A stretch of 22,369 bases of DNA from a virus: IMG/VR virus record IMGVR_UViG_3300021185_002927, positions 1 through 22,369 of that record. The stretch is one strand, 5' to 3'. The position numbers and the translations under genes were made by a program. The notes beneath the pieces were generated by a model. The model did no database searches, was not told the DNA's origin, and saw only the letters and a list, made by a program, of their open reading frames with translations. How positions within the stretch are numbered: position 1 is the first letter of the stretch; every line of letters begins with the position of its first letter. Below are positions 3 to 15,328 of this stretch, piece by piece.

Positions 3-3000
3 GATATAGATATAACAGGAGGTAGTGGTGTAAACACTGAAGAACTTAATGCAGCAACAAGCTCATTATCAGGCTCTCTAGGAACAGAAATATCAGCATC
101 AGACGCAGCATTTTCAGCATCAGTAGAGAATACTACTAATACATTAGATGGAAAAATATTTACAGATAGTGCAGGTAGAGCAGTAAGACCACCAACAGCA
201 TCAGCTGAAGGACTTTATTTAGCTTCTACAAACTTAGGATTCTATAAAGATGGTGAATGGAAAACCTACATGGATAATCAAGGGGATTTCTTCTTAACAG
301 GTTCTGAAGGTAATAAATTAGCATGGGATTCATCGACCGGAACATTAGAGATAGCCGGAGCAATAAATATCACATCAGGAAACGCTGCAACTCAAGATTA
401 TGCATCAACTGAGGCATCAGCATCTGCAGCAGCAGCAGAATCAGCTTCTTTAGCTATAATATCACAAGTCTCTGCTTCACTCTCAGGATCAATTAGCTCA
501 TCAACAGCTACACTACAATCAGGGTTAGACTCAGCAAACTTAGTACTAGCTGGTAAATCAGCTATATTTAGACAAGCCGAAGCACCTTATACTGCATCAG
601 GTACTATAGGGGATATGTGGATAGATAGTGACGAAGGAAACGCTGTAAAGATATGGTCAGGAGACGAAACAGGATGGGCAACAACCCCAGATGAAACTTA
701 TAATCAAATAACTCAGATATCAGGAGCAATAGATAATGTATCTTTAGATATATTTACAGACTCATCTGGTAGAATAGTAAGAACACCGGATACGTCATCT
801 GCAGGACTGTACTTAGGAGATGAAGCATTAGGTTTTTATTCCGAAAGTGAATGGAAGACCTACATGTCTAATAACGGAAACTTCTACTTAACAGGAAGTG
901 ATCAAGGAGAATTTTTAACTTGGGATGGAGGACAATTAAGCATTAAAGGATCTATTAATATCACAGGAGGTAATGCAGCTACATCAACAGACGTAAGTGA
1001 CGCACAAACAGCAGCAGAAACATTTGCATCAGCATCAACAGCTAATGCTATATTAAGTGGATCAGCAGCAGCATCAGAAGCACAAACAGCTGCAGAAACA
1101 ACCGCAGCAGCAGCACTAGCAACCGCTACAGGTTCATTAGATACAGCATTATCAGCATCAATATCAGCATCAAATGCATCATTTGCAACTCAAGCACAAA
1201 CCAACGCAGCATTTGAATTAGTACAAGCTGGGTTAAATTCAATATTTAAACAAAATGAAGCACCAGCAACGGAAAGTAGACACCAAGGAGATATTTGGAT
1301 AGATGCAGATGCAGGTAATCAATTATATGTTTTTAGTGGAAGCGAATGGGTAACCGCATCTGATACAACATACGATCAATCACAGCTTATATCAGATACA
1401 GCTGCTACACAGTCGTTAAATACATTTACAGATTCTTCAGGTAGAATAGTTAGAACTCCTTCAACAACACAAGACGGACTATACTTAGGTGATTCAGCTC
1501 TAGGTTTTTATTCAGGAAGCAGCTGGAGAACTTATATGGCTGATAACGGGAATTTCTTTTTAACAGGAAGTGCTACCAATTTCTTAAAATGGGATGGACA
1601 ACAGCTAACTATTGCAGGGACTATAAATATAGTAGGAGGAAACGCTGCTACAAATCAAAGCGTAAGTGACGCACAAACAGCAGCAGAAAACTTTGCAACT
1701 ACCGCTAGTAATGCAGTATCAGCCTCTCTAACAGGTTCAATAGCAACAGCACAACAAGCAGGAGAAGACGCAAGTACAGCAGCTTTACAAGCACAACTTA
1801 CTGCATCAGCAGCAACAGAAACTGCCGAATCAGCATCTGCAGAAGCATCGACTGTACAAGGAAATTTAGATTTAGCAACCGGCTCACTAGAGACATCAAT
1901 AGGTAATGTAGCAACAACAGCATCATTAAGTGCATCAGCAGCACAAACAGCTGCAGAAAACTTTGCAACTACTGCTAGTAGCGACGCACAAACTGCTGCG
2001 GAAGCATTTGCAACCACTGCTAGTGATGCTGCTCAAACAGCAGCAGAATCGTATGCGGACACAGCAACCGATGCATTAACAGGTTCAATCAATACAGCAT
2101 TAACAAGATCAGTAGATGCAGCAGGACAAATAACATTCCCAGCAACACCTTCAGGAGAAGGGTTATATATAGGAGCAGATAAATTAGGGTTCTACGGAGA
2201 AGCAAACGTACTAGGGACTACCGGTAATATGTGGAGAACTTTAATATCCTCCTCAGGTGAGTTCTACCTACTAGGCGATTCAGGAAGCACAGGATTAGCA
2301 TGGACAAATAACGAATTAACAGTTGACGGTACAGTAATTGCAAGAGCAGGAGAAATAGGAGGTATAACTTTAGAAGACTCTAAACTATATAACGGAGAAG
2401 GAACACACAGTGATGCAGATACTGGATTCTATTTAGACTCTTCAAGTAACTTCTCTCTAGGAGATAAGCTAGTATGGGATGGAGAAAATCTATCCATAGA
2501 AGGTAGTATAACAATCACAAACACAACATACGCTCTACTATCAGACTTTAATACTGCAACCGGATCATTAGAAACAACAATAGGTAACGTAGCATCTACC
2601 GCTTCAGCAGAAGCATCTGCAGCACAAACAGCAGCTCAAAACTTCGCAACTACTGCAAGTAATGATGCACAAACAGCAGCAGAAACAACTGCAGCAGCAG
2701 CCTTAAATACAGCAACAGGATCGTTAGAAACATCAATAGGGAACGTAGCAACAACTGCATCTCTATCAGCATCTGCAGCTCAAACAGCAGCAGAAAACTT
2801 TGCAACTACTGCTAGTAATGATGCACAAACAGCAGCAGAAACAACTGCAGCAGCAGCATTAAATACAGCAACAGGATCACTACAAGAGTATGCAGACGGA
2901 GCAGTTTCTGATGTTACAGGATCAATTATTGATGCTCAATCAACTGCAAATGCAGCAACAAGTTCTGCAGCATCAGCTCAATCAACCGCAAACGCTGCTA

Positions 3001-6000
3001 CAAGTTCTGCAGCATCCGCCCAAGCAACTGCCGATGCAGCAACAGGTTCAATAGAGACATTAATAGCAGTAACTAGTTCATTTGTAAATCCTACAACTTA
3101 CGATTTCGGACCTTCCGCTCAAATGACACTAAATACATTAGGAGACACTCCTAATGGAGCTGGGTTATATCTTGGAGGAGATAAACTAGGTTACTACAAC
3201 GCATCTAACTGGATGTCCTATATGGGCAACGATGGTACATTTATACTTTCAGGCTCTGGAGATGATGGATTAATCTGGAACGGCTCTAGTTTAAGAATAG
3301 GAAACCCAGGAATTTCTCCAAGTTTAGTATACGGATTTTGGCCCGGTACATTAGATGATAATGTATTTGACTCATCAGACGGTATGCTTATTACAGCAGT
3401 TACCTCACCAACAGCTGGAGCAACATTCCAAAATACAGGGTCAAGCGCTTGGGATGAAGGATTCCATACAAAAGCAGTTTTCGATAGAAACGAAGGACAG
3501 GTATTCGAATGGGATGTAATAGCAGGAGACCAGTACCCAGCAACGTATTTAGGATTATACGAAGAATCTCCACAAAGATTTGATTATGACCAATTAATTT
3601 GCGGTTTCTATTTACAATCCAGAAAAATAATGGTAAAAGAGTTCCTGCCTGGAGCTGACACTGTTGAACATGATCTAGCAACTAACGCTTGGGATGATGA
3701 CCCAGACTTTTCTGAAGCTCAATATTTTAGATTGAGACTTACTATTAAATCTGAAGGTGCGGTATACGAAGCATTTAAAAATGGAGATTTCACTTCTCCT
3801 TTGGGTACTATAGATACAACAAGTAATGGTAGTACAGCACAGTACTTTAGACCTGGGATAGTAATTCACTACAGTGACGACGTAGCAGCACATACAGATA
3901 ATAAATTAATATTGATGCAAATGTCCGCCGGTGCTACGATTGGACAAGCAACAAGAATATCAGGTAACGCAGTTCAAACAGGAGCAATTATTTCAACTAA
4001 TTGGGGAGCACAATATGGAACCCAGTTAGATCTAGAAAATAGTACATTTAAACTAGGAGGATCTACATCTCCTAAACTTAGTTTTGATGGTACAAACTTA
4101 AGTGTTGTGGGTAACATAACAGTTACTAACCCTGATACTTTTGCAACACCTTCTTCAAAAAATAAATCTGACTACAATATTATTCTAGTCGCAACAGGAA
4201 GTGCTAACTCATCAACTTCTGCTTTTACTATATCAGAAATAAGTAACTTAGGATATACCGGAGGAAACAACGGTTCTCATTTCTATGATAATAATAATGA
4301 TTCAGATGGGAATATAAACCCATCAAATATTGTAGGGTACGATAGTGTAGATTATGATATGTATGTTTTTGATTGCCGTAACTGGGCGATAAACGGCTCA
4401 GAAGTTCAATTAGCATTAAACTTATTTGACCAAGGAAAATCAGTATTAGTAACAGGTAATGATAATATTGAGGCTAACTACACAGGATCATACAATACAG
4501 AATGGCCTATAGTAACTACCGTAGACGCTTCTGGAACCTGGCAACAAGGAGCTCTAGCTACAGGTTCAGGTATACCGTCATCTCATCCAATACTCTCAGG
4601 AGTTACGGAATTTGGTACTGATACAAATAGCGATACCGGTAAAAAAATTACAAAGTTAAAAAGGCTGCCTCAAGGTGGTTCCATTGTAATGCCTTTAGGA
4701 GTATCCGGAAGTACACAAATGACAGCCACCACCAGTGAATTTATATCAGGAAGTGGAGCAGTGATAGGGTTCTTAATGACAAATCCTAGAGGTGGTAGAT
4801 TGATAAATTTAAATATATACGGATTAAGCAGTGTTAATAGTAAGTTAAGAGAGAACATTACTAATTTCTTACTAAGAACAGATCCGGCAATTGAAGCACA
4901 TTACCTACAAGTAACCTCAATCACAGGTGAAATGGTTAATACAGGTAGAGTAGAATCTACTAACTATATACATGGATCTGGAGATTTTTCAACACAAGGA
5001 ACAAGGATAGATTTAGATAACGGTAGTATTAGAGGAACACAGTTTGAAATAGATACATCAGGTAACGCTAAATTTGCAGGAGATATCACTGGTGCTAGCG
5101 GTATTTTCTCAGGGAATATTACAGCAGCAGGAGGAACAGTAGGTGGGTATACAATACACGGTGATAAGCTATTTACAGGAACAGACGAAAATGTAAGCAC
5201 ATATACATCTACTGCAGGTAGGTTGATTGTATCTTCAAGCGGCGCAATACATACGAATAAATTTTACGTAGATAAAAACGGTAACGCAGGATTTAAAGGT
5301 AGTCTATCCGGAGCAGACATAACAGGTGCAAACGGAACCTTTACCGGTACGGTAGAAATAGGAGGAACAGACTTAACTTTAGCAAACACGTTAAATACAG
5401 AAGATCCAATGTCAGCAGCTTCGTTGACATTTAATCCTAATTTCTTGCAAGTAGCAAGTGACGGTAGACCAGCAGGTGTATACGCCATCTATGGTTCATC
5501 AACAGCAAGCAATATATCATATTCAGGTTCAGCCTCAGATGGAGTAGTAGCGTTAGAATCAAACAGCGATAATAGTATAGGTGCCGCTTTCAGTGCTTTC
5601 TCAGTAGAAAGTGGTAAGAAGTATAAGTTAATAGTAAGATTAAAGTCATCTCAAACAAGTAATAACGGGCTATATATTAGAATGGCGGAATTAGATTCCG
5701 ACATGCCAACTAACACTGTAGCAATTAGTGGTAATACCGTAAATGAAACAAGAGCTGCAGATGGATCTAGAGCACAAGGCCCACTATCTAACTTTTCAGT
5801 TGATGGAGCATCAGTACCAAGTTTTAACAATATAGAAACAAATGAGGATGCTTATAGAGTATACCAAGCTATTTACACACCTACTTCTACAGCTAAGTAC
5901 GCTTCACCTAACATATTAAATTGGGATGCATTAGGTAATGAAGCTCTATACATCGATAGAGTTATAGTACAAGAAACATCCGATATATATACAGGGACAG

Positions 6001-8282
6001 TAGGAGGATGGACAATATCAGATAGTGCAATTTATTCAAGTCCGACACCTGATACAGCAGAGTTTACAACCACAGGAATAACTATAGCTTCGAACGGAGG
6101 TTTTCACTCACCTAACTTTTACATATCATCTTCAGGACAAGCATATTTTAAAGGATTAATTAGTGCTAGTGCTCTTTACGGTTCGGAGATATACGGTACA
6201 ACAATAGAAGGAGGGTCAATACTAGGTGGTACATTAGCTGGAGGTTCTTTAGCAATACCTGAGGCAACTGGATCAGTCACATCTTCTTTTATAGTAGATT
6301 CAGAAGGAAATATGACAGCATCAAACGCTAATATTTCCGGTATTGTAAACGCAGATGGTGGAACGATTGGAGATTGGGTTATAGATGAAACTACAAACGT
6401 ACTAAGAGATTCAGATTCAGAATTAATACTAGATCCTAATACCCCGGAAATTGCAATGTTCTCCTCAGGATCTAAAAAATTATCTCTATCACCAGTAGGG
6501 TCATTAACTCCTACAGGTGGTCAGTCAACAAATATTACAGGGTTGAGTATTAGTAATTCTTTCTCTGTCTCATCAAACAGTTCTAATAATAACGATGTAA
6601 ATACATACGTAAACGGTACCCTAAGTACCCAAACATATACTGCTGGAGGACCTGGAGACTATGTTATGTTTGTAGACGTCCCATCATTTAAAGTTGGAAA
6701 ACCATCGGGTGAATATTCTAATAGTGTTTCAAATCCAACATATACTTCAACCGCCGGTGCAAATCACGGACTCTACCCTCAACCTAACCCAGCATATAAC
6801 AGAGCAAGTTTATATATAGAAGCAGTTAAGGTGAGCGATAACACTGTGTTAGGTTCTACATTAATAGGAGAATCCTATGCTTTCCAAAATAAAGGTTCAT
6901 GGACATACTACTACGCTTCAGGATCATCATCATCATCCACAGGTGGAACTGGTCTGCAACCAGGCTTCCAATCAGTAGAAGCTAATACAGAGATAACTGT
7001 AAAAAATGGAGGTTTTAAATTAGCTAAAGACATTACAGTAGGGGATAAAATTATAGGTATAGAGTTTTCTGAAAATACTAACAGAGTAACAGAAGCTGAA
7101 ATTACACAAGTAAGTTCTAGAGAAGTTGAAGAAACTTACAGAGTTGTAACAAACCTAAAAGAGGTTGTTGTATCTGATAGTCATGAATTTGCAATCGCAG
7201 GTAACGAAAGATTAAAAGTTAAAGATTTAATACCAGGAGAAACACTACTATACACACTAGAGAATAATACAATTCAGCAAGAAGTAGTTGAATCGGTAAT
7301 ATTAGAAAACTCAGAAAATAAACAAGTATTTACATTCGAAGTATCACCAACACATAACTATATTTCTGACGGTATACTCTCACACAATGCTGCAGCAGAA
7401 GGATTTGGTCCAAGCGACGGTGGTAATGATGACCCCTCAGATGACGATGGAGATGCTCCAGGATCAGGTTATACCTGGGAGGATAATGATACGACAGCTA
7501 ACGCCAACCCTACTTGGATAACTCAATCTGCAATTAATGATAAGCAGATAAATATGCAATTAAGTGCAGGTGGGGATATTAAGTTTAGATATAAGTGGAG
7601 ATATACAGCTAGAGCTAAAAAGCAATACTCATGGGGTTCTACAAGTAGTAGTTATACTGCTAATTACGCCTCTCATACCTTCAACGGCTGGGTTACAACA
7701 CCTACAATTTCAAACAAGACTGCAAGCATACAAACTCCTAGTAACTTTGTAGAATTGAAATCTGGAGGTATACAGATTGTATCTTCTGATACAAAATTTG
7801 TGACAATGCCAAGATTGGATAATACAGGGGATGAATTTGATATATTATTCAAAACAGCAGGTGGAACAATGGCAACTCACCATATTAGACCAGTTAGTTC
7901 CGCTAATAATAGTGAATTAGGTACTAGTTCCTATAGGTATAGTAAACTAAATGGAATAGATATTAGTAATTTAGTTGTATCTGTAGACGAAGGACCAAAC
8001 ACAGGAACTACCACTACTAATAATGTCACAGATAACTTTGATAATTATACGAAATTACCTGGAGGGTTAATAATACAGTGGGGGCATATATACGATACAT
8101 CAAACCCGAGACTAGTAACATTCCCAACAACATTCCCGAATGCTGTTCATTCTGTTGTGTGTTCTACTAATAGAAACTCATCTGGATCTAGCGGTTACAA
8201 CCACGTTTATGATTATAGTAGATCCAAAGCAAGCTTAATACTTGACGCTTCATATGGGTTCTGGGTAGCATTTGGTTATTAA
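3..8282 (+). CDS. Giant modular tail fibre / host-recognition protein, 5' end outside window
   Basis: The frame is open from the first bases, so the ATG at 270 is internal and at least 2759 codons are present. Visible parts in order: five copies of a GLYL..LGFY..W.TYM..G.F.LTGS module (about 150-3310) separated by Ala/Thr/Ser-rich helical spacers; two copies of an IF(R/K)Q.EAP..GD.WID segment (564 and about 1245); a beta-sandwich-like stretch (3330-3930); a Rossmann-like stretch (4160-4905); beta-repeat segments with G.(V/I)GG(W/Y).I motifs; a carbohydrate-binding-like stretch (5440-5990); a Hint domain (6972-7388); an Asp-rich linker; and a C-terminal tip GGLIIQWG...WVAFGY typical of gp53-like fibre C-termini. 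It probably forms a long trimeric adsorption fibre. The assembly chaperone lies 11 bases downstream. Fibre identity is secure from the repeats and tip; individual domain names apart from Hint and tip are inference. Confidence 0.9.
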   Translation, partial: DIDITGGSGVNTEELNAATSSLSGSLGTEISASDAAFSASVENTTNTLDGKIFTDSAGRAVRPPTASAEGLYLASTNLGFYKDGEWKTYMDNQGDFFLTGSEGNKLAWDSSTGTLEIAGAINITSGNAATQDYASTEASASAAAAESASLAIISQVSASLSGSISSSTATLQSGLDSANLVLAGKSAIFRQAEAPYTASGTIGDMWIDSDEGNAVKIWSGDETGWATTPDETYNQITQISGAIDNVSLDIFTDSSGRIVRTPDTSSAGLYLGDEALGFYSESEWKTYMSNNGNFYLTGSDQGEFLTWDGGQLSIKGSINITGGNAATSTDVSDAQTAAETFASASTANAILSGSAAASEAQTAAETTAAAALATATGSLDTALSASISASNASFATQAQTNAAFELVQAGLNSIFKQNEAPATESRHQGDIWIDADAGNQLYVFSGSEWVTASDTTYDQSQLISDTAATQSLNTFTDSSGRIVRTPSTTQDGLYLGDSALGFYSGSSWRTYMADNGNFFLTGSATNFLKWDGQQLTIAGTINIVGGNAATNQSVSDAQTAAENFATTASNAVSASLTGSIATAQQAGEDASTAALQAQLTASAATETAESASAEASTVQGNLDLATGSLETSIGNVATTASLSASAAQTAAENFATTASSDAQTAAEAFATTASDAAQTAAESYADTATDALTGSINTALTRSVDAAGQITFPATPSGEGLYIGADKLGFYGEANVLGTTGNMWRTLISSSGEFYLLGDSGSTGLAWTNNELTVDGTVIARAGEIGGITLEDSKLYNGEGTHSDADTGFYLDSSSNFSLGDKLVWDGENLSIEGSITITNTTYALLSDFNTATGSLETTIGNVASTASAEASAAQTAAQNFATTASNDAQTAAETTAAAALNTATGSLETSIGNVATTASLSASAAQTAAENFATTASNDAQTAAETTAAAALNTATGSLQEYADGAVSDVTGSIIDAQSTANAATSSAASAQSTANAATSSAASAQATADAATGSIETLIAVTSSFVNPTTYDFGPSAQMTLNTLGDTPNGAGLYLGGDKLGYYNASNWMSYMGNDGTFILSGSGDDGLIWNGSSLRIGNPGISPSLVYGFWPGTLDDNVFDSSDGMLITAVTSPTAGATFQNTGSSAWDEGFHTKAVFDRNEGQVFEWDVIAGDQYPATYLGLYEESPQRFDYDQLICGFYLQSRKIMVKEFLPGADTVEHDLATNAWDDDPDFSEAQYFRLRLTIKSEGAVYEAFKNGDFTSPLGTIDTTSNGSTAQYFRPGIVIHYSDDVAAHTDNKLILMQMSAGATIGQATRISGNAVQTGAIISTNWGAQYGTQLDLENSTFKLGGSTSPKLSFDGTNLSVVGNITVTNPDTFATPSSKNKSDYNIILVATGSANSSTSAFTISEISNLGYTGGNNGSHFYDNNNDSDGNINPSNIVGYDSVDYDMYVFDCRNWAINGSEVQLALNLFDQGKSVLVTGNDNIEANYTGSYNTEWPIVTTVDASGTWQQGALATGSGIPSSHPILSGVTEFGTDTNSDTGKKITKLKRLPQGGSIVMPLGVSGSTQMTATTSEFISGSGAVIGFLMTNPRGGRLINLNIYGLSSVNSKLRENITNFLLRTDPAIEAHYLQVTSITGEMVNTGRVESTNYIHGSGDFSTQGTRIDLDNGSIRGTQFEIDTSGNAKFAGDITGASGIFSGNITAAGGTVGGYTIHGDKLFTGTDENVSTYTSTAGRLIVSSSGAIHTNKFYVDKNGNAGFKGSLSGADITGANGTFTGTVEIGGTDLTLANTLNTEDPMSAASLTFNPNFLQVASDGRPAGVYAIYGSSTASNISYSGSASDGVVALESNSDNSIGAAFSAFSVESGKKYKLIVRLKSSQTSNNGLYIRMAELDSDMPTNTVAISGNTVNETRAADGSRAQGPLSNFSVDGASVPSFNNIETNEDAYRVYQAIYTPTSTAKYASPNILNWDALGNEALYIDRVIVQETSDIYTGTVGGWTISDSAIYSSPTPDTAEFTTTGITIASNGGFHSPNFYISSSGQAYFKGLISASALYGSEIYGTTIEGGSILGGTLAGGSLAIPEATGSVTSSFIVDSEGNMTASNANISGIVNADGGTIGDWVIDETTNVLRDSDSELILDPNTPEIAMFSSGSKKLSLSPVGSLTPTGGQSTNITGLSISNSFSVSSNSSNNNDVNTYVNGTLSTQTYTAGGPGDYVMFVDVPSFKVGKPSGEYSNSVSNPTYTSTAGANHGLYPQPNPAYNRASLYIEAVKVSDNTVLGSTLIGESYAFQNKGSWTYYYASGSSSSSTGGTGLQPGFQSVEANTEITVKNGGFKLAKDITVGDKIIGIEFSENTNRVTEAEITQVSSREVEETYRVVTNLKEVVVSDSHEFAIAGNERLKVKDLIPGETLLYTLENNTIQQEVVESVILENSENKQVFTFEVSPTHNYISDGILSHNAAAEGFGPSDGGNDDPSDDDGDAPGSGYTWEDNDTTANANPTWITQSAINDKQINMQLSAGGDIKFRYKWRYTARAKKQYSWGSTSSSYTANYASHTFNGWVTTPTISNKTASIQTPSNFVELKSGGIQIVSSDTKFVTMPRLDNTGDEFDILFKTAGGTMATHHIRPVSSANNSELGTSSYRYSKLNGIDISNLVVSVDEGPNTGTTTTNNVTDNFDNYTKLPGGLIIQWGHIYDTSNPRLVTFPTTFPNAVHSVVCSTNRNSSGSSGYNHVYDYSRSKASLILDASYGFWVAFGY
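2658..2878 (+). repeat. Pair of 65-base near-identical direct repeats, 156 bases apart
   Basis: 2658-2722 and 2814-2878 differ at one visible base (a cc/ca change in the Ala codon before Leu). They encode SNDAQTAAETTAAAALNTAT. DNA-level identity, and not only protein-level, suggests recent unequal exchange or slippage in the fibre spacer. Confidence 0.8.
2934..3053 (+). repeat. Three tandem 42-base units in the fibre spacer
   Basis: Units starting at 2934, 2976 and 3018 encode AQSTANAATSSAAS twice and then the diverged AQATADAATGS. They form a 14-residue periodic Ala/Ser/Thr segment, probably a coiled-coil or helical shaft. Confidence 0.8.
6972..7388 (+). other. Hint (intein-like) domain embedded in the tail fibre
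   Basis: 139 codons with Hint blocks in the right order. Block A is SVEANTEITVKNG followed by LAKDITVGDKI, with Ser where the N-terminal nucleophile sits. Block B is VVVSDSHEF, with His at 7182 matching the TxxH motif. Blocks F/G are SPTHNYISDGILSHN, ending in the His-Asn pair needed for Asn cyclisation. There is no room for a homing endonuclease. The residue after Asn is Ala, not Cys/Ser/Thr, so ordinary protein splicing is not expected; this is more like a bacterial-intein-like or self-cleaving Hint. The domain is richer in Lys and Glu than the flanking fibre, consistent with an inserted unit. Cleavage activity is inference. Confidence 0.85.
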
Positions 8283-8293
8283 AATAAAAAATT

Positions 8294-8686
8294 ATGGAAA
8301 AAAAATACTTTGGACATTACAATAGCAACACAGGAGATTATGAAGGGTTTTACCCAACAGACATTTATACCAATATTAGTGAAATACCTACACCTAATAT
8401 AGAATTAACTAAAGAAGAGTGGAGAGAAGCACGTTCACCTAAGCGATTTAGGGTAATAGAGAATACACACACAGAAGTACCATATACTAGTGAGGAAGAG
8501 AACATAAAATCACTAAGTGCTACTAGGACACAAAGAGATAGCTTACTTAAAGAAACAGATTGGGTAGTTCTACCTCATTCCCCAATTACAGGTTCTAAGT
8601 TAGATGAATGGGTTACTTATAGACAAGCGTTAAGAGATGTAACCTCTCAAACACCTCCCTACACTTTACCAACAAAACCTGAATAA
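8294..8686 (+). CDS. Tail fibre assembly chaperone-like protein
   Basis: 130 residues, 11 bases after the fibre stop. The C-terminal part has the layout of phage tail-assembly chaperones (PF16778-like): RDSLLKETDWVVLPHSP, then DEWVTYRQALRDV, and a Pro-rich end PPYTLPTKPE. The N-terminal part (GHYNSNTGDYEGFYP) resembles the variable portion that fits the partner fibre. Position directly behind the fibre gene supports a role in folding or attaching that fibre. The start ATG follows an A-rich stretch with no Shine-Dalgarno. Family assignment is from remembered family motifs. Confidence 0.8.
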   Translation: MEKKYFGHYNSNTGDYEGFYPTDIYTNISEIPTPNIELTKEEWREARSPKRFRVIENTHTEVPYTSEEENIKSLSATRTQRDSLLKETDWVVLPHSPITGSKLDEWVTYRQALRDVTSQTPPYTLPTKPE

Positions 8687-8724: not shown

Positions 8725-9204
8725 ATGGCAACAATCCCTGGATGGACATATAAAGGAAAAACAGTAACTGAGATATCAGATATGCCAGAAGGTACTTATG
8801 GTTTTATTTATGAAACTACTCATAGACCTACTGGCCAAAAGTACCTAGGTAAGAAAGTTTTATTCTTCGAACGTAATAAAAGACTAGGAAAAAGAGCTTT
8901 AGAAGCTTTGAGAGAAGAAAGAAAAGCTAAAGGAATCGGAGGTAGAATACCCTTGAAACAAAAAGTTGTAACAGAGTCTGATTGGAAAGATTATTACGGA
9001 TCTCATAAAGAAATTTTAAAATTAGTTAAAGAAAACGACCCTAATAGTTTTGAAAGAAAAATTTTAGAGTACGTACCTAATAAAAAGCTACTTACATATT
9101 ATGAATGTAAATACCTATTTATAAATGAAGTACTAGAGAATCGAAATACTTATATAAATGATAATGTATTGGGTAAATTTTTTAGAAAAGATTTTAACTT
9201 ATGA
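8725..9204 (+). CDS. GIY-YIG-superfamily nuclease, possible free-standing homing endonuclease
   Basis: 159 residues. YGFIYETTHRPTGQKYLGKK supplies the GIY (GFIY) and YIG (YLGKK) elements; SDWKDYYGSHKE and FERKILEYV follow, then YYECKYLF with the likely catalytic Glu. This is the layout of small phage GIY-YIG proteins (WK.YYGS, then an E.K helix). It has its own promoter-like element and stands between the fibre operon and the cargo genes, as expected for a free-standing mobile nuclease, but it could also be a phage repair or host-DNA-degrading enzyme. The downstream gene overlaps its stop by four bases (ATGA). Confidence 0.7.
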   Translation: MATIPGWTYKGKTVTEISDMPEGTYGFIYETTHRPTGQKYLGKKVLFFERNKRLGKRALEALREERKAKGIGGRIPLKQKVVTESDWKDYYGSHKEILKLVKENDPNSFERKILEYVPNKKLLTYYECKYLFINEVLENRNTYINDNVLGKFFRKDFNL

Positions 9205-12045: not shown

Positions 12046-12969
12046 ATGGATTATACCTTTTTATTAGGTTCTATTGAAAATTTACTTGGTAAATCTCATA
12101 AAAGAGCTAGAGAAAATTATGCATTTCACTGCCCTTTCTGCAACCACAGAAAGCCTAAGCTTGAAATAAACATGGCTACTAATGAAAAAGGGCATAACCC
12201 TTGGGAATGTTGGGTATGTCAAACTAAAGGCAGGACAATTAGATCTCTCCTAAAACAACTTAATACACCTAAAGATCAAGCATTACAGATATTAAAGTAT
12301 CTTCCTAAAGGATCTCAAATTGAGTATAAAGGTATAACATCTGTTGAACTTCCAAAAGAGTTCCAAAGACTAGACCAAGCAACAAACACTTCAGTAATTG
12401 CAAACTTAGTTAAAAAATACTTATATGAGAGAGGACTTACCGACAATGATTTTATTAAATATGGTATTGGATACTGCACAAGTGGAGAGTATGGAGGACG
12501 AGTTATTTTACCGAGTTATTCTGGATCCAATAGGCTCAACTATTTTGTTGGAAGAAGTTATGATGGCAACTATTTTAAGTATAAAAACCCCGAAGCTTCC
12601 AAAGACATAATATTCTATGAAAACTTAATAAACTGGGATTGTCCAATAATTTTATGTGAAGGAGTTTTTGATGCAATAGCAATACGAAGAAATGCAATAC
12701 CAATTTTAGGTAAAAGTATATCAAATGAACTATGGAAAAAAATATTATCAAGCCGTCTTACTGACATTTATATAGCTTTAGATGAAGATGCACAAGACGC
12801 AGCTTTAGGCATTGCTGAAAAATTAATATCAGCAGGATTTAGAGTATTTCTAATAGAACTAGCAGGTAAGGATCCATCCGAAATGGGTTTTAAAAAATTT
12901 ACTGAACTAGTACAGAACGCAACAGAACTAGATTTTAGTAAGATAATGTTGCAAAAACTAAACTTATGA
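12046..12969 (+). CDS. DNA primase (zinc ribbon + Toprim)
   Basis: 307 residues. The N-terminal zinc ribbon is CPFC (29/32) and CWVC (55/58). The Toprim core has ILCEGVFDAIAI with catalytic Glu205 and IALDEDAQ with Asp246 and Asp248. It makes RNA primers on the lagging strand and probably acts with a phage helicase encoded elsewhere, like gp61 of T4, though the length and zinc ribbon also resemble compact DnaG-type phage primases. It starts a new transcription unit behind a promoter-like pair and is coupled (ATGA overlap) to the nuclease gene, forming a replication pair. No leader of the cargo type, as expected for a cytoplasmic replication enzyme. Confidence 0.88.
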   Translation: MDYTFLLGSIENLLGKSHKRARENYAFHCPFCNHRKPKLEINMATNEKGHNPWECWVCQTKGRTIRSLLKQLNTPKDQALQILKYLPKGSQIEYKGITSVELPKEFQRLDQATNTSVIANLVKKYLYERGLTDNDFIKYGIGYCTSGEYGGRVILPSYSGSNRLNYFVGRSYDGNYFKYKNPEASKDIIFYENLINWDCPIILCEGVFDAIAIRRNAIPILGKSISNELWKKILSSRLTDIYIALDEDAQDAALGIAEKLISAGFRVFLIELAGKDPSEMGFKKFTELVQNATELDFSKIMLQKLNL

Positions 12970-13748
12970 TTAAACAAGGAATGAACATTCTTGAACAGAA
13001 TGAAAAGAAGAGATTAGATTTTAACCCGCAACTAAAGCAGATTAATTTCTTAGATAGAAGAGTTTATAAGAGAGGCGAAGGAGTATATTACCCGTCCGTA
13101 ACAACTATACTTCAGTATATGCCCAAAAACAAGTTTTTTGAGTCTTGGCTTAAAGACGTTGGGCATAACGCCGATCTTATTATGAGACGAGCTGGAAAGC
13201 AAGGAACTCAAGTACATGAAGCATGTGAACAGTTAGTACTAGGTAAAGAAGTTACCTGGATGGATGATTATGGTAATGCTAAGTACTCTCAAATAGTTTG
13301 GGAAATGATATTAAAATTTGCTGACTTCTGGAGGACACATAAGCCGGAATTAATATCTGCTGAAGATTTTGTATGGTCAGACGAACATAAGTATGCAGGA
13401 ACAGCAGATCTAGTTGTAAAAATGCACGGACAAATATGGTTACTAGATATTAAAACGTCTAACTCAGTTCATAAATCTTTTGACTTACAGCTTTCAGCTT
13501 ACGCAAAAGGATTAGAAGAAGCTAAAGGCATAAAAATAGAACGTACAGGTATCATATGGTTAAAAGCTCACTCTAGAGGTCCATCAAAACAAAAAAACGT
13601 AATACAGGGTAAAGGATGGAAGTTATTGCAAATTGATAAAATAGATGAGAATTTTGAGTTATTTAAAATGATATACAAGTTATATTCTCTAGAAAACCCT
13701 AATACTGAACCTATTTATAATAGTTACCCAACATCATTAAAACTATAA
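12966..13748 (+). CDS. PD-(D/E)XK exonuclease, Cas4/RecB-like
   Basis: 260 residues. The motifs of the family are present: GTQVHEACEQL with the conserved His84, KYAGTADLVV with Asp148, LLDIKTSNS with Asp161 and Lys163, and a following QLSAYAKGL helix with the Q.xxY motif. It probably processes DNA ends in recombination-dependent replication or degrades host DNA. The start ATG at 12966 overlaps the primase stop; Met6 at 12981 is an alternative. No Cys cluster for an Fe-S centre, unlike typical Cas4, so it is closer to the iron-free phage exonucleases. Confidence 0.85.
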   Translation: MIKQGMNILEQNEKKRLDFNPQLKQINFLDRRVYKRGEGVYYPSVTTILQYMPKNKFFESWLKDVGHNADLIMRRAGKQGTQVHEACEQLVLGKEVTWMDDYGNAKYSQIVWEMILKFADFWRTHKPELISAEDFVWSDEHKYAGTADLVVKMHGQIWLLDIKTSNSVHKSFDLQLSAYAKGLEEAKGIKIERTGIIWLKAHSRGPSKQKNVIQGKGWKLLQIDKIDENFELFKMIYKLYSLENPNTEPIYNSYPTSLKL

Positions 13749-13752
13749 ACAT

Positions 13753-14625
13753 ATGGTAAAGAGAAGTGTACTTTTAATTTTAATAGCATTTTTAATAAGC
13801 AGTTGCGGCGTAGGCTTTAAGTATACTACGCTAAACCATGCAGGACATATTGACGGTATATATTCCAGTAATGATATTAAAATTGATACATTAAATGAGT
13901 TCCAAGTAAGAAATAAACTCAGAACAGACTTCCAGTTTAGATATAACTTTGCACAATATGCGCTATCTCAACCTACATCATTTGATTGGAATAACCGTAT
14001 ACTAGGTAACAGATACAACTGGAACAGACCCTATTACGGCTACTATTGGAATAGAACTCAAATGTGGCATGATTGGGTATGGGGGTATCCATATTTTACT
14101 CCACACAGATGGTCACCGTTTGGGTATGATAGATGGGGATATGGAATACACTATGGCTGGAACAATCACGGATGGAGATACAACAGGTACTATAACAATG
14201 GATGGAATAATTACGGATGGAGTAACCTATACGGGTATAGAGGTAGAGTAAACTACCGCCCTAATTATAATAGAAGGAATAATTCAAACTTTGTAATTGA
14301 AGAAGACGGAGTACGGTGGTATAGCAGTTCCAGTGATAATACTAATAGAAGAACTAATTATAATAAAAGAGTAATACGTAACAGCAATGATAAAACTATC
14401 AACAATAATCCTAGAGGATACAGCCGCCCCGAAAGCAATAATAATGGCGGGAGGAGCAGGATCAGGGAAAACATACCTACTCAACCAGTTAGGACTAGAC
14501 AGCCTAATACAATTCAACCCAGACAAATACGTGGAGGACAAAGACCACCCGTATTACAACAAACTAGGACCAGCAGCCAATCAAACGTCAAAGGACGCAA
14601 TGGCAGCAGCAGAGGAAAAAACTAG
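13753..14625 (+). CDS. Flavobacterial-type lipoprotein, cargo gene
   Basis: 290 residues. The N-terminus is a clear lipoprotein signal: basic MVKR, hydrophobic SVLLILIAFLIS, then lipobox ISSC with Cys at about 20. The mature part has an aromatic and Asn-rich middle (for example NGWNNYGWSNLYGYRG) and an Arg/Asn/Gln/Ser/Gly-rich tail. This composition is typical of poorly characterised outer-membrane-attached lipoproteins of Bacteroidota, and I know of no phage structural family like it. It may alter the infected cell surface, for example as a superinfection barrier. The last 79 codons overlap the next gene in another frame. Lipoprotein call is secure; role is inference. Confidence 0.75.
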   Translation: MVKRSVLLILIAFLISSCGVGFKYTTLNHAGHIDGIYSSNDIKIDTLNEFQVRNKLRTDFQFRYNFAQYALSQPTSFDWNNRILGNRYNWNRPYYGYYWNRTQMWHDWVWGYPYFTPHRWSPFGYDRWGYGIHYGWNNHGWRYNRYYNNGWNNYGWSNLYGYRGRVNYRPNYNRRNNSNFVIEEDGVRWYSSSSDNTNRRTNYNKRVIRNSNDKTINNNPRGYSRPESNNNGGRSRIRENIPTQPVRTRQPNTIQPRQIRGGQRPPVLQQTRTSSQSNVKGRNGSSRGKN

Positions 14626-15328
14626 CTTTGTCTGGGATACTACTGCCTCTGGTGTAGGTTTCCAAAAAAACTTAGATAAACTACTTGCTTTAGGGTATGA
14701 AGTTTACATGGTTATGGTGTATGCTCATCCTATGATCTCATACGTATCTAATTTTATGGCTAGAGAAAGAAATATACCTGGAGACTCTGTTTTTGCAACC
14801 TGGAGAAATGTGTATGCTAAAATAGAAGATTTTAATAGACAATTAAAAGGTAATTTATCTATATTCGTTAGTGATAGAGGAGGGAAATACAAAAAAGAAG
14901 TTGAAGGATTTGACAAAGCTGCTAAAAACGGCTTAAGTGGAGTAAAAGATTACTTAGAAAAATTTAACGAAGATAATAACGTTGGAGGATCTTCATTCTT
15001 TGTACCAGTAGAAATGACACCTGAGGAAGAGCAGCAGTTTTTAAAAGATGTTGGAAGTATAGATTGGAATAAAGACAATAGGTCAGAAGATAAAGCAATT
15101 AAAACCGCATTTTTAAAATCCTTTAGAAAGAATGGAGTCGGTCCAGGACAAGATAAACTTAGAGATGCAGTTAAGAAATACAGAGATAGTAGTGAGAAAA
15201 GGAAACAAAAGGCAGATGAAGTATTAGATAATATCGTAGATATGATATATAATCCAACATTTCAAGAAAAGCTAAAACACTCCTCAGTATCAGAAATAGA
15301 TTCTAAAGTACAAGCATTTTTAGCATGA
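14387..15328 (+). CDS. Zeta-toxin-like P-loop kinase with capsid-targeting-like leader
   Basis: 313 residues. The leader is MIKLSTIILE (I-L-E at 8-10). Walker A is GGAGSGKT (22-29), followed by QFNPDKYVED and SFVWDTTASG, which resemble the substrate/base region of zeta-toxin and related kinases (NPD, then an internal D). The C-terminal half is helical and charged. Likely a small-molecule or nucleotide-sugar kinase; the true substrate is unknown. Start and Walker A both lie within the lipoprotein gene, so the ATG at 14387 is needed to make an active kinase. The stop overlaps the next ATG by four bases, so it is probably cotranslated with the nucleotidyltransferase fusion. Confidence 0.8.
   Translation: MIKLSTIILEDTAAPKAIIMAGGAGSGKTYLLNQLGLDSLIQFNPDKYVEDKDHPYYNKLGPAANQTSKDAMAAAEEKTSFVWDTTASGVGFQKNLDKLLALGYEVYMVMVYAHPMISYVSNFMARERNIPGDSVFATWRNVYAKIEDFNRQLKGNLSIFVSDRGGKYKKEVEGFDKAAKNGLSGVKDYLEKFNEDNNVGGSSFFVPVEMTPEEEQQFLKDVGSIDWNKDNRSEDKAIKTAFLKSFRKNGVGPGQDKLRDAVKKYRDSSEKRKQKADEVLDNIVDMIYNPTFQEKLKHSSVSEIDSKVQAFLA

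Follow-up and report, generated by a model that had tools for sequence, protein, structure and literature searches.

The tail fibre gene that opens IMG/VR record IMGVR_UViG_3300021185_002927 (22,369 bases, analysed at full length and hereafter called the window) raises the question of what an intein-like Hint domain does in a fibre when the residue after its terminal His-Asn is Ala. The window carries a true Hint domain inside this fibre, just before the tip. Judged from its sequence and those of related Hints, it is probably an A-type bacterial intein-like (BIL) domain in a variable linker between shaft and tip, where a cut at Asn139, before Ala+1, would free the tip. The preliminary description of this DNA had missed this frame, in which a +1 position without a nucleophile is usual.

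The Hint domain of the tail fibre

The fibre gene (positions 3..8282; it, the features within it and the chaperone gene downstream lie on the + strand) was assigned from its open frame, a Gp53-like_C match and PHROG tail fiber families matched by the C-terminal piece. It is 5'-open at the record start with 2759 aa visible, so the protein has at least 2759 aa. After a Ser/Gly/Thr-rich linker (SGSSSSSTGGTGLQPGFQ; 6918..6971), the Hint domain (6972..7388) runs in frame with the fibre from Ser1 (codon 6972-6974) to His138-Asn139 (7383-7388), and at only 139 aa it is too short to include a homing endonuclease. Blocks A, N2, B, N4, F and G could be recognised by eye. In the alignment, the nucleophile Ser1 begins the stretch SVEANTEI (6972..6995), which corresponds to block A, and the stretches holding Ser68-x-x-His71 (7137..7190) and His128 (7326..7367) correspond to blocks B and F. 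Block G (7368..7388) ends in His138-Asn139 and is followed by the +1 Ala (GCT, 7389..7391), which replaces Cys, Ser or Thr. A cut at Asn139 would release a C-terminal piece of 297 aa (7389..8279; stop codon at 8280-8282), which starts with a Gly/Asp-rich linker and contains a Gp53-like tip (8052..8279; Pfam PF21882, E 1.9e-15). The G+C content of the Hint is 0.31 vs. 0.38 on either flank. The preliminary description had placed the domain at exactly these coordinates, and its account of a Ser nucleophile, an Ala at +1 and a C-terminal piece of about 297 residues with a gp53-like tip proved correct.

The identity of the domain was evaluated using profiles and a predicted fold. The curated intein models alone give borderline support, near or under their cut-offs: Pfam Intein_splicing scored 25.4 bits (E 1.4e-5, cut-off 35.8), TIGR01445 intein_Nterm 12.5 bits (cut-off 24.5) and TIGR01443 intein_Cterm 16.4 bits, above its cut-off of 15.6. 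A profile of 23 Hints from outside the fibre group scored the window fibre at 63.6 bits (E 1.6e-19), with 13.3 bits for the best of 500 domain shuffles; this profile is not wholly independent of the window, as the search that collected its members began with a profile including the window Hint. In addition, a profile of nine fibre-group Hints, with the window left out, gave 33.9 bits for the window and 9.5 for the best shuffle. The AlphaFold2 model of the domain (mean pLDDT 70.6, pTM 0.71) is poor in its N-terminal third, with residues 16-21 and 23-36 under 50. It matched mini-inteins with Z up to 18.6, the Clostridium BIL domain 2lwy with Z 17.1 (rmsd 2.2 over 135 residues) and Tetrahymena BIL2 (6y75, 6tmm) with Z 17.9. 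The mini-inteins NpuDnaB (4o1r, Z 18.1) and Ssp DnaB (1mi8, Z 18.4) have the same fold, blocks and His-Asn, but the window Hint lacks a Cys, Ser or Thr at +1 and sits outside essential enzymes.

Related Hints at a variable site

Relatives were collected from viral_contigs by scans with the Hint, with an alignment and with the relatives' tip domain, and by searching for the block F-G motif as a DNA pattern, which matched 15 contigs. Besides the window, 15 IMG/VR contigs have a Hint ahead of a C-terminal tip, among them L002, which at 99.95% identity over 13,119 bases is the window virus again. The window shaft matched the upstream parts in nine of the 13 relatives compared (L161 stands outside this comparison) at E 0.01 or better; the exceptions were the short fragment L020 and L003, L011 and L012, whose short upstream parts belong to proteins that are cut or about 500 aa long. 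Based on this pattern, only ten contigs (L004-L009 and L019-L022) are described as long fibres or fibre fragments, and L003, L011, L012 and L161 as shorter proteins that have the tip domain in common with them and lack the shaft. Comparing related fibres for the domain and its +1 residue, a check proposed in the preliminary description, gave Ala in five, Thr in four, Met in three, Ile in two, and Gly and Val in one each of the 16 tip-proximal Hints, so that 12 of the 16 have no Cys, Ser or Thr there. Ten representatives at 95% identity showed the same spread (A3 I2 T2 G1 V1 M1). Position 1 is Cys in 14 and Ser in two, the window having Ser1 where the fibre-group Hints of other viruses have Cys. 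Ser68, His71, His128, His138 and Asn139 are invariant in all 16, and the window Hint shares 25-30% identity with the Hints of other viruses in the group.

The C-terminal pieces of the relatives consist of a domain of 180-219 aa, truncated at the contig edge in L012 and L161, that is unrelated to the window's; neither PHROGs nor Pfam named a family for it, and its predicted model, at a pLDDT of 50.9, was of insufficient quality for a structure search. For the window C-terminal piece, the same virus was the only relative in viral_contigs. An internal translation start for the tip was considered and rejected: at +1, three relatives have ATG, one has GTG and the remaining ten listed have other codons. 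Queried by tblastn with the Hint and C-terminal piece of the window, as well as the Hints or fibre end of L004, L045 and L177, 50,697 phage records gave no Hint in an annotated fibre among the matches listed. These were to enzyme inteins, proteins without a placement and, in Escherichia fibres, the Gp53-like part; in addition, a tail fibre of one Vibrio phage matched the tip domain weakly (E 6e-3). Among the match regions, H53 adjoins ribonucleotide reductase genes, and H41 and H39 are unannotated.

Several scans used the Hint motif itself, a bias that was checked by the route through the relatives' tip domain. This route reached 27 contigs, of which 13 carry a full Hint, 13 carry no Hint and one (L163) begins inside the tip. 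The Hint-free L151 and the Hint-bearing L009 share 98.7% DNA identity over 4520 bp downstream of the site, starting 21 bases beyond the last base of the Hint; upstream, identity is 79% over 145 bp near the site and 91% over 969 bp further away. Compared from position 1629 of L151 and position 9096 of L009, the two show a sharp edge within the fibre gene, at the shaft-tip junction. As judged from these alignments, the edge is a recombination boundary and the Hint is an optional element of a variable stretch. For the window itself, no homologue lacking the Hint was found in viral_contigs.

Selection on the Hint was assessed by the NG86 method on close pairs, in which dS values above about 1 are unreliable. 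Low dN relative to dS was obtained for L003/L011 (dN 0.025, dS 0.894; +1 G and A), L011/L012 (0.066, 2.271; A and A), L004/L005 (0.034, 0.283; V and M) and L019/L020 (0.054, 0.227; T and T). By these values, the relatives' Hints are under purifying selection while the +1 residue drifts. Moreover, in the forward frames of the 27 tip-domain contigs no Hint profile score falls between 227.5 and 8.8 bits, and half-decayed copies were accordingly not seen. The preliminary description had also offered a degenerate intein; as a main explanation this was rejected, since the active-site residues persist in the related Hints, close pairs combine low dN/dS with differing +1 residues and the forward frames of the 27 contigs yielded no decayed copy.

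Proposed self-cleavage and its alternatives

A-type BIL domains reportedly go back to work by Amitai (2003), Dassa (2004) and Aranko (2013), with 2lwy as a structure. Excerpts of PMC4031507, PMC7765530 and PMC5874633 describe them as ending in His-Asn without a +1 nucleophile, lying in variable regions and mainly cleaving. The window Hint shares the fold, as the matches to 2lwy and BIL2 show, the N-terminal nucleophile, the C-terminal His-Asn and a +1 position without Cys, Ser or Thr; placement in a variable region of a non-conserved protein was found for the relatives, in the L151 vs. L009 comparison and in the 13 of 27 contigs without a Hint. It differs from the A-type BILs in sitting in a phage tail fibre and not in a bacterial protein. 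A B-type BIL, defined by the lack of an intein-like block G, does not match, because the block G His-Asn is present and TIGR01443 lies above its cut-off. Hedgehog Hog domains are Hints without a terminal His-Asn, followed by a sterol-recognition part; here His-Asn is present and a phage fibre tip follows. Taken together, the sequence features place the domain among a known kind, the A-type BIL-like Hint, in an unusual host, the phage tail fibre. Listings and excerpts of the literature on BIL, Hint or intein together with phage, tail fibre or tape measure, among them PMC7664689, PMC3556154, PMC5526547 and PMC3091684, contained no BIL domain in a phage tail, nor were the terms found in PMC10721106.

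With the cutting residues kept and the usual joining residue gone, self-cutting is more probable than normal splicing. After folding, Asn139 would cyclise and the chain would be cut before Ala+1, freeing the tip segment from the shaft; as a lesser outcome, Ser1 could form an N-terminal ester that is then hydrolysed, an N-terminal cleavage. Less often, the new amino end of the tip might attack the Ser1 ester and rejoin shaft and tip without the Hint. We infer an active Hint in which the C-terminal cut is the main reaction and helps to mature the tail. Self-processing at Asn139, as raised in the preliminary description, is our best guess from the sequence. Its likening of the cut to intramolecular chaperone release holds as an analogy only: Pfam at E up to 1 found Gp53-like_C alone, and no S74 or G2 peptidase, in a 298-aa C-terminal piece, and a separate tail assembly chaperone gene (8294..8686; Pfam PF16778, E 6e-14) lies directly downstream of the fibre. 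A self-cutting module would have a plausible use, since cuts in tail proteins are a known part of assembly; excerpts of PMC10038345 name the T5 and lambda tape measures and T4 gp5. As proposed for the window fibre, these are cut ahead of a C-terminal part, but the proposed cutter in the window fibre is part of the chain itself.

Several observations weigh against this explanation. Thr occupies +1 in four of the 16 tip-proximal Hints. Inteins often carry Asp or Cys at block F position 121, which is Thr in the window and Asn in the other group members. The evidence for selection comes from the relatives alone, the window copy's only relative being the same virus, and one pair, L008/L009 (dN 0.122, dS 0.161; +1 I and I), shows weak constraint. 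Furthermore, the existence of L151, a twin without the Hint, implies that this tip also functions while joined to the shaft, and this result fits ligation or no reaction equally well.

Ligation would occur if the BIL domain mainly spliced, with Asn cyclising first and the tip amine then attacking the N-terminal (thio)ester, so that the mature fibre would be continuous without the Hint. This we consider unlikely, albeit worth keeping in view. An excerpt of PMC4031507 proposes exactly this route for A-type BILs, the termini of the Hint fold are adjacent, and L151 bears the same tip without any Hint; however, reviews, as far as the excerpts go, have cleavage as dominant, and PMC7765530 states that A-type BILs cannot ligate. 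By general chemistry, Ser1 would also yield a less reactive oxygen ester, and bulky Val and Ile stand at +1 in relatives. Slightly less likely again is a folded insert that stays silent, a relic of an intein accommodated by a flexible linker without any reaction. Linkers do lie on either side of the Hint, which is optional between nearly identical phages, and with its termini side by side the fibre need not be disturbed, but the invariance of the active-site residues across the group, the low dN/dS of most close pairs and the absence of decayed copies among the tip-domain contigs argue against this. That the domain is an ordinary class 1 intein with canonical splicing is scarcely credible: it has the intein fold, the terminal His-Asn and, at position 1, Ser as one of the two residues (Cys or Ser) expected there, and four of the 16 Hints have Thr+1, yet Ala+1 is unable to take the acyl group and the Hint interrupts a variable linker instead of a conserved active site. 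By analogy, the Hint might also act as a built-in transpeptidase in phage tails: once Asn has cyclised, the shaft (thio)ester would be passed to a second molecule, at one of its amines or hydroxyls, and the fibre thereby covalently cross-linked to the host surface or a neighbouring molecule, which is very improbable. Such a reaction would resemble the transfer to lysine by BIL2, for which an excerpt of PMC8616854 reports an isopeptide bond, and the transfer to cholesterol by Hedgehog; BIL2, however, belongs to a eukaryotic polyubiquitin locus.

Retention of the domain for self-cleavage, perhaps for ligation, rather than as a dead intein is the best reading of the sequence data. If active, the domain would equip the tail fibre with a cutter (or ligase) of its own directly before the tip and provide BIL domains with a concrete natural setting; if inactive, it would be a clean case of a Hint tolerated at a non-essential site.

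Hints in other tail proteins and neighbouring genes

The most interesting part is the recurrence of Hints in several tail proteins. Counts of +1 residues hold only for Hints fitting the block F-G pattern, which in its general form found at least 121 motifs in at least 119 stretches, with Ser in 57, Cys in 34, Thr in 18 and other residues in 12. Among the matches listed, these 12 comprise six long fibres, one short tip-domain protein, three tail-tip proteins and two tandem C-terminal Hints. For the Cys/Ser/Thr cases, 93 of 109 C-terminal flanks were scanned, after setting aside repeats and those of insufficient length; the leading families are portal, thymidylate synthase, helicase and terminase, and the best 25 of 64 families include no tail family, portal being itself a virion protein. 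A +1 codon beginning with G (Ala, Val, Asp, Glu or Gly) was found in 17 viral contigs, 14 of them in tail or tail-like proteins: long fibres (L002, L103), short tip-domain proteins (L003, L012, L129, L172), tail-tip proteins (L045 and L094 by PHROG; L135, L179 and L181 by likeness) and tape measures (L176 and L177 by PHROG, L174 by eye), with L175, L178 and L180 unplaced. No match in viral_contigs had a +1 codon beginning with C. In 48 cellular loci, mostly haloarchaeal, all 54 motifs had Cys, Ser or Thr at +1.

The tape-measure Hints lie near the C-terminus with Val or Ala at +1 (L174 11042-13147, L176 2725-6771, L177 1-3957) and end 78, 93 and 123 aa, respectively, before the protein end. 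By analogy, tape measures, which T5 and lambda process by proteolysis, may here cut themselves. In the five tail-tip proteins, which are J-like, the Hint lies about 50-75 aa into the protein with Gly at +1 and is flanked by the Gly-rich stretches KGGGSG and HN-GGGSK. Tandem Hints stand at the extreme C-terminus in L032 (5730-7949) and L074 (13998-14603), the last with one Lys after His-Asn and the preceding one with Phe at +1. The unplaced Hint proteins, without a PHROG match, are L180 (650-3121, +1 Val), with just seven residues after the Hint, L175 (12309-14003, +1 Gly) and L178 (7268-8788, +1 Gly). Hints without a +1 nucleophile in tail-tip proteins and tape measures suggest that some phages may mature their tail proteins by Hint, where T5, lambda and T4 use proteolysis. 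In the tree, the window stands beside the fibre-group Hints (support 96/91, long branches) and apart from the tail-tip and tape-measure Hints, with a weak backbone. Uniting all tail Hints in one clade (22 rows), a hypothesis chosen after the tree, gave a worse fit that was borderline in the approximately unbiased (AU) test (p 0.040); AU p values were 0.080 for the window with tail-tip Hints and 0.048 for the window with tape-measure Hints.

Shortly after the fibre and chaperone genes, the window encodes a SegE-like GIY-YIG endonuclease (8725-9204; Pfam E 7e-26); that it might help to spread the fibre end is a pure guess. Further downstream lie a DNA primase (12046-12969; phrog_47, E 2.5e-43), an adjoining PD-(D/E)XK nuclease-like gene (12966-13748) just below the Pfam cut-off and a zeta-toxin-like kinase domain (14387-15328; Pfam E 9e-12).

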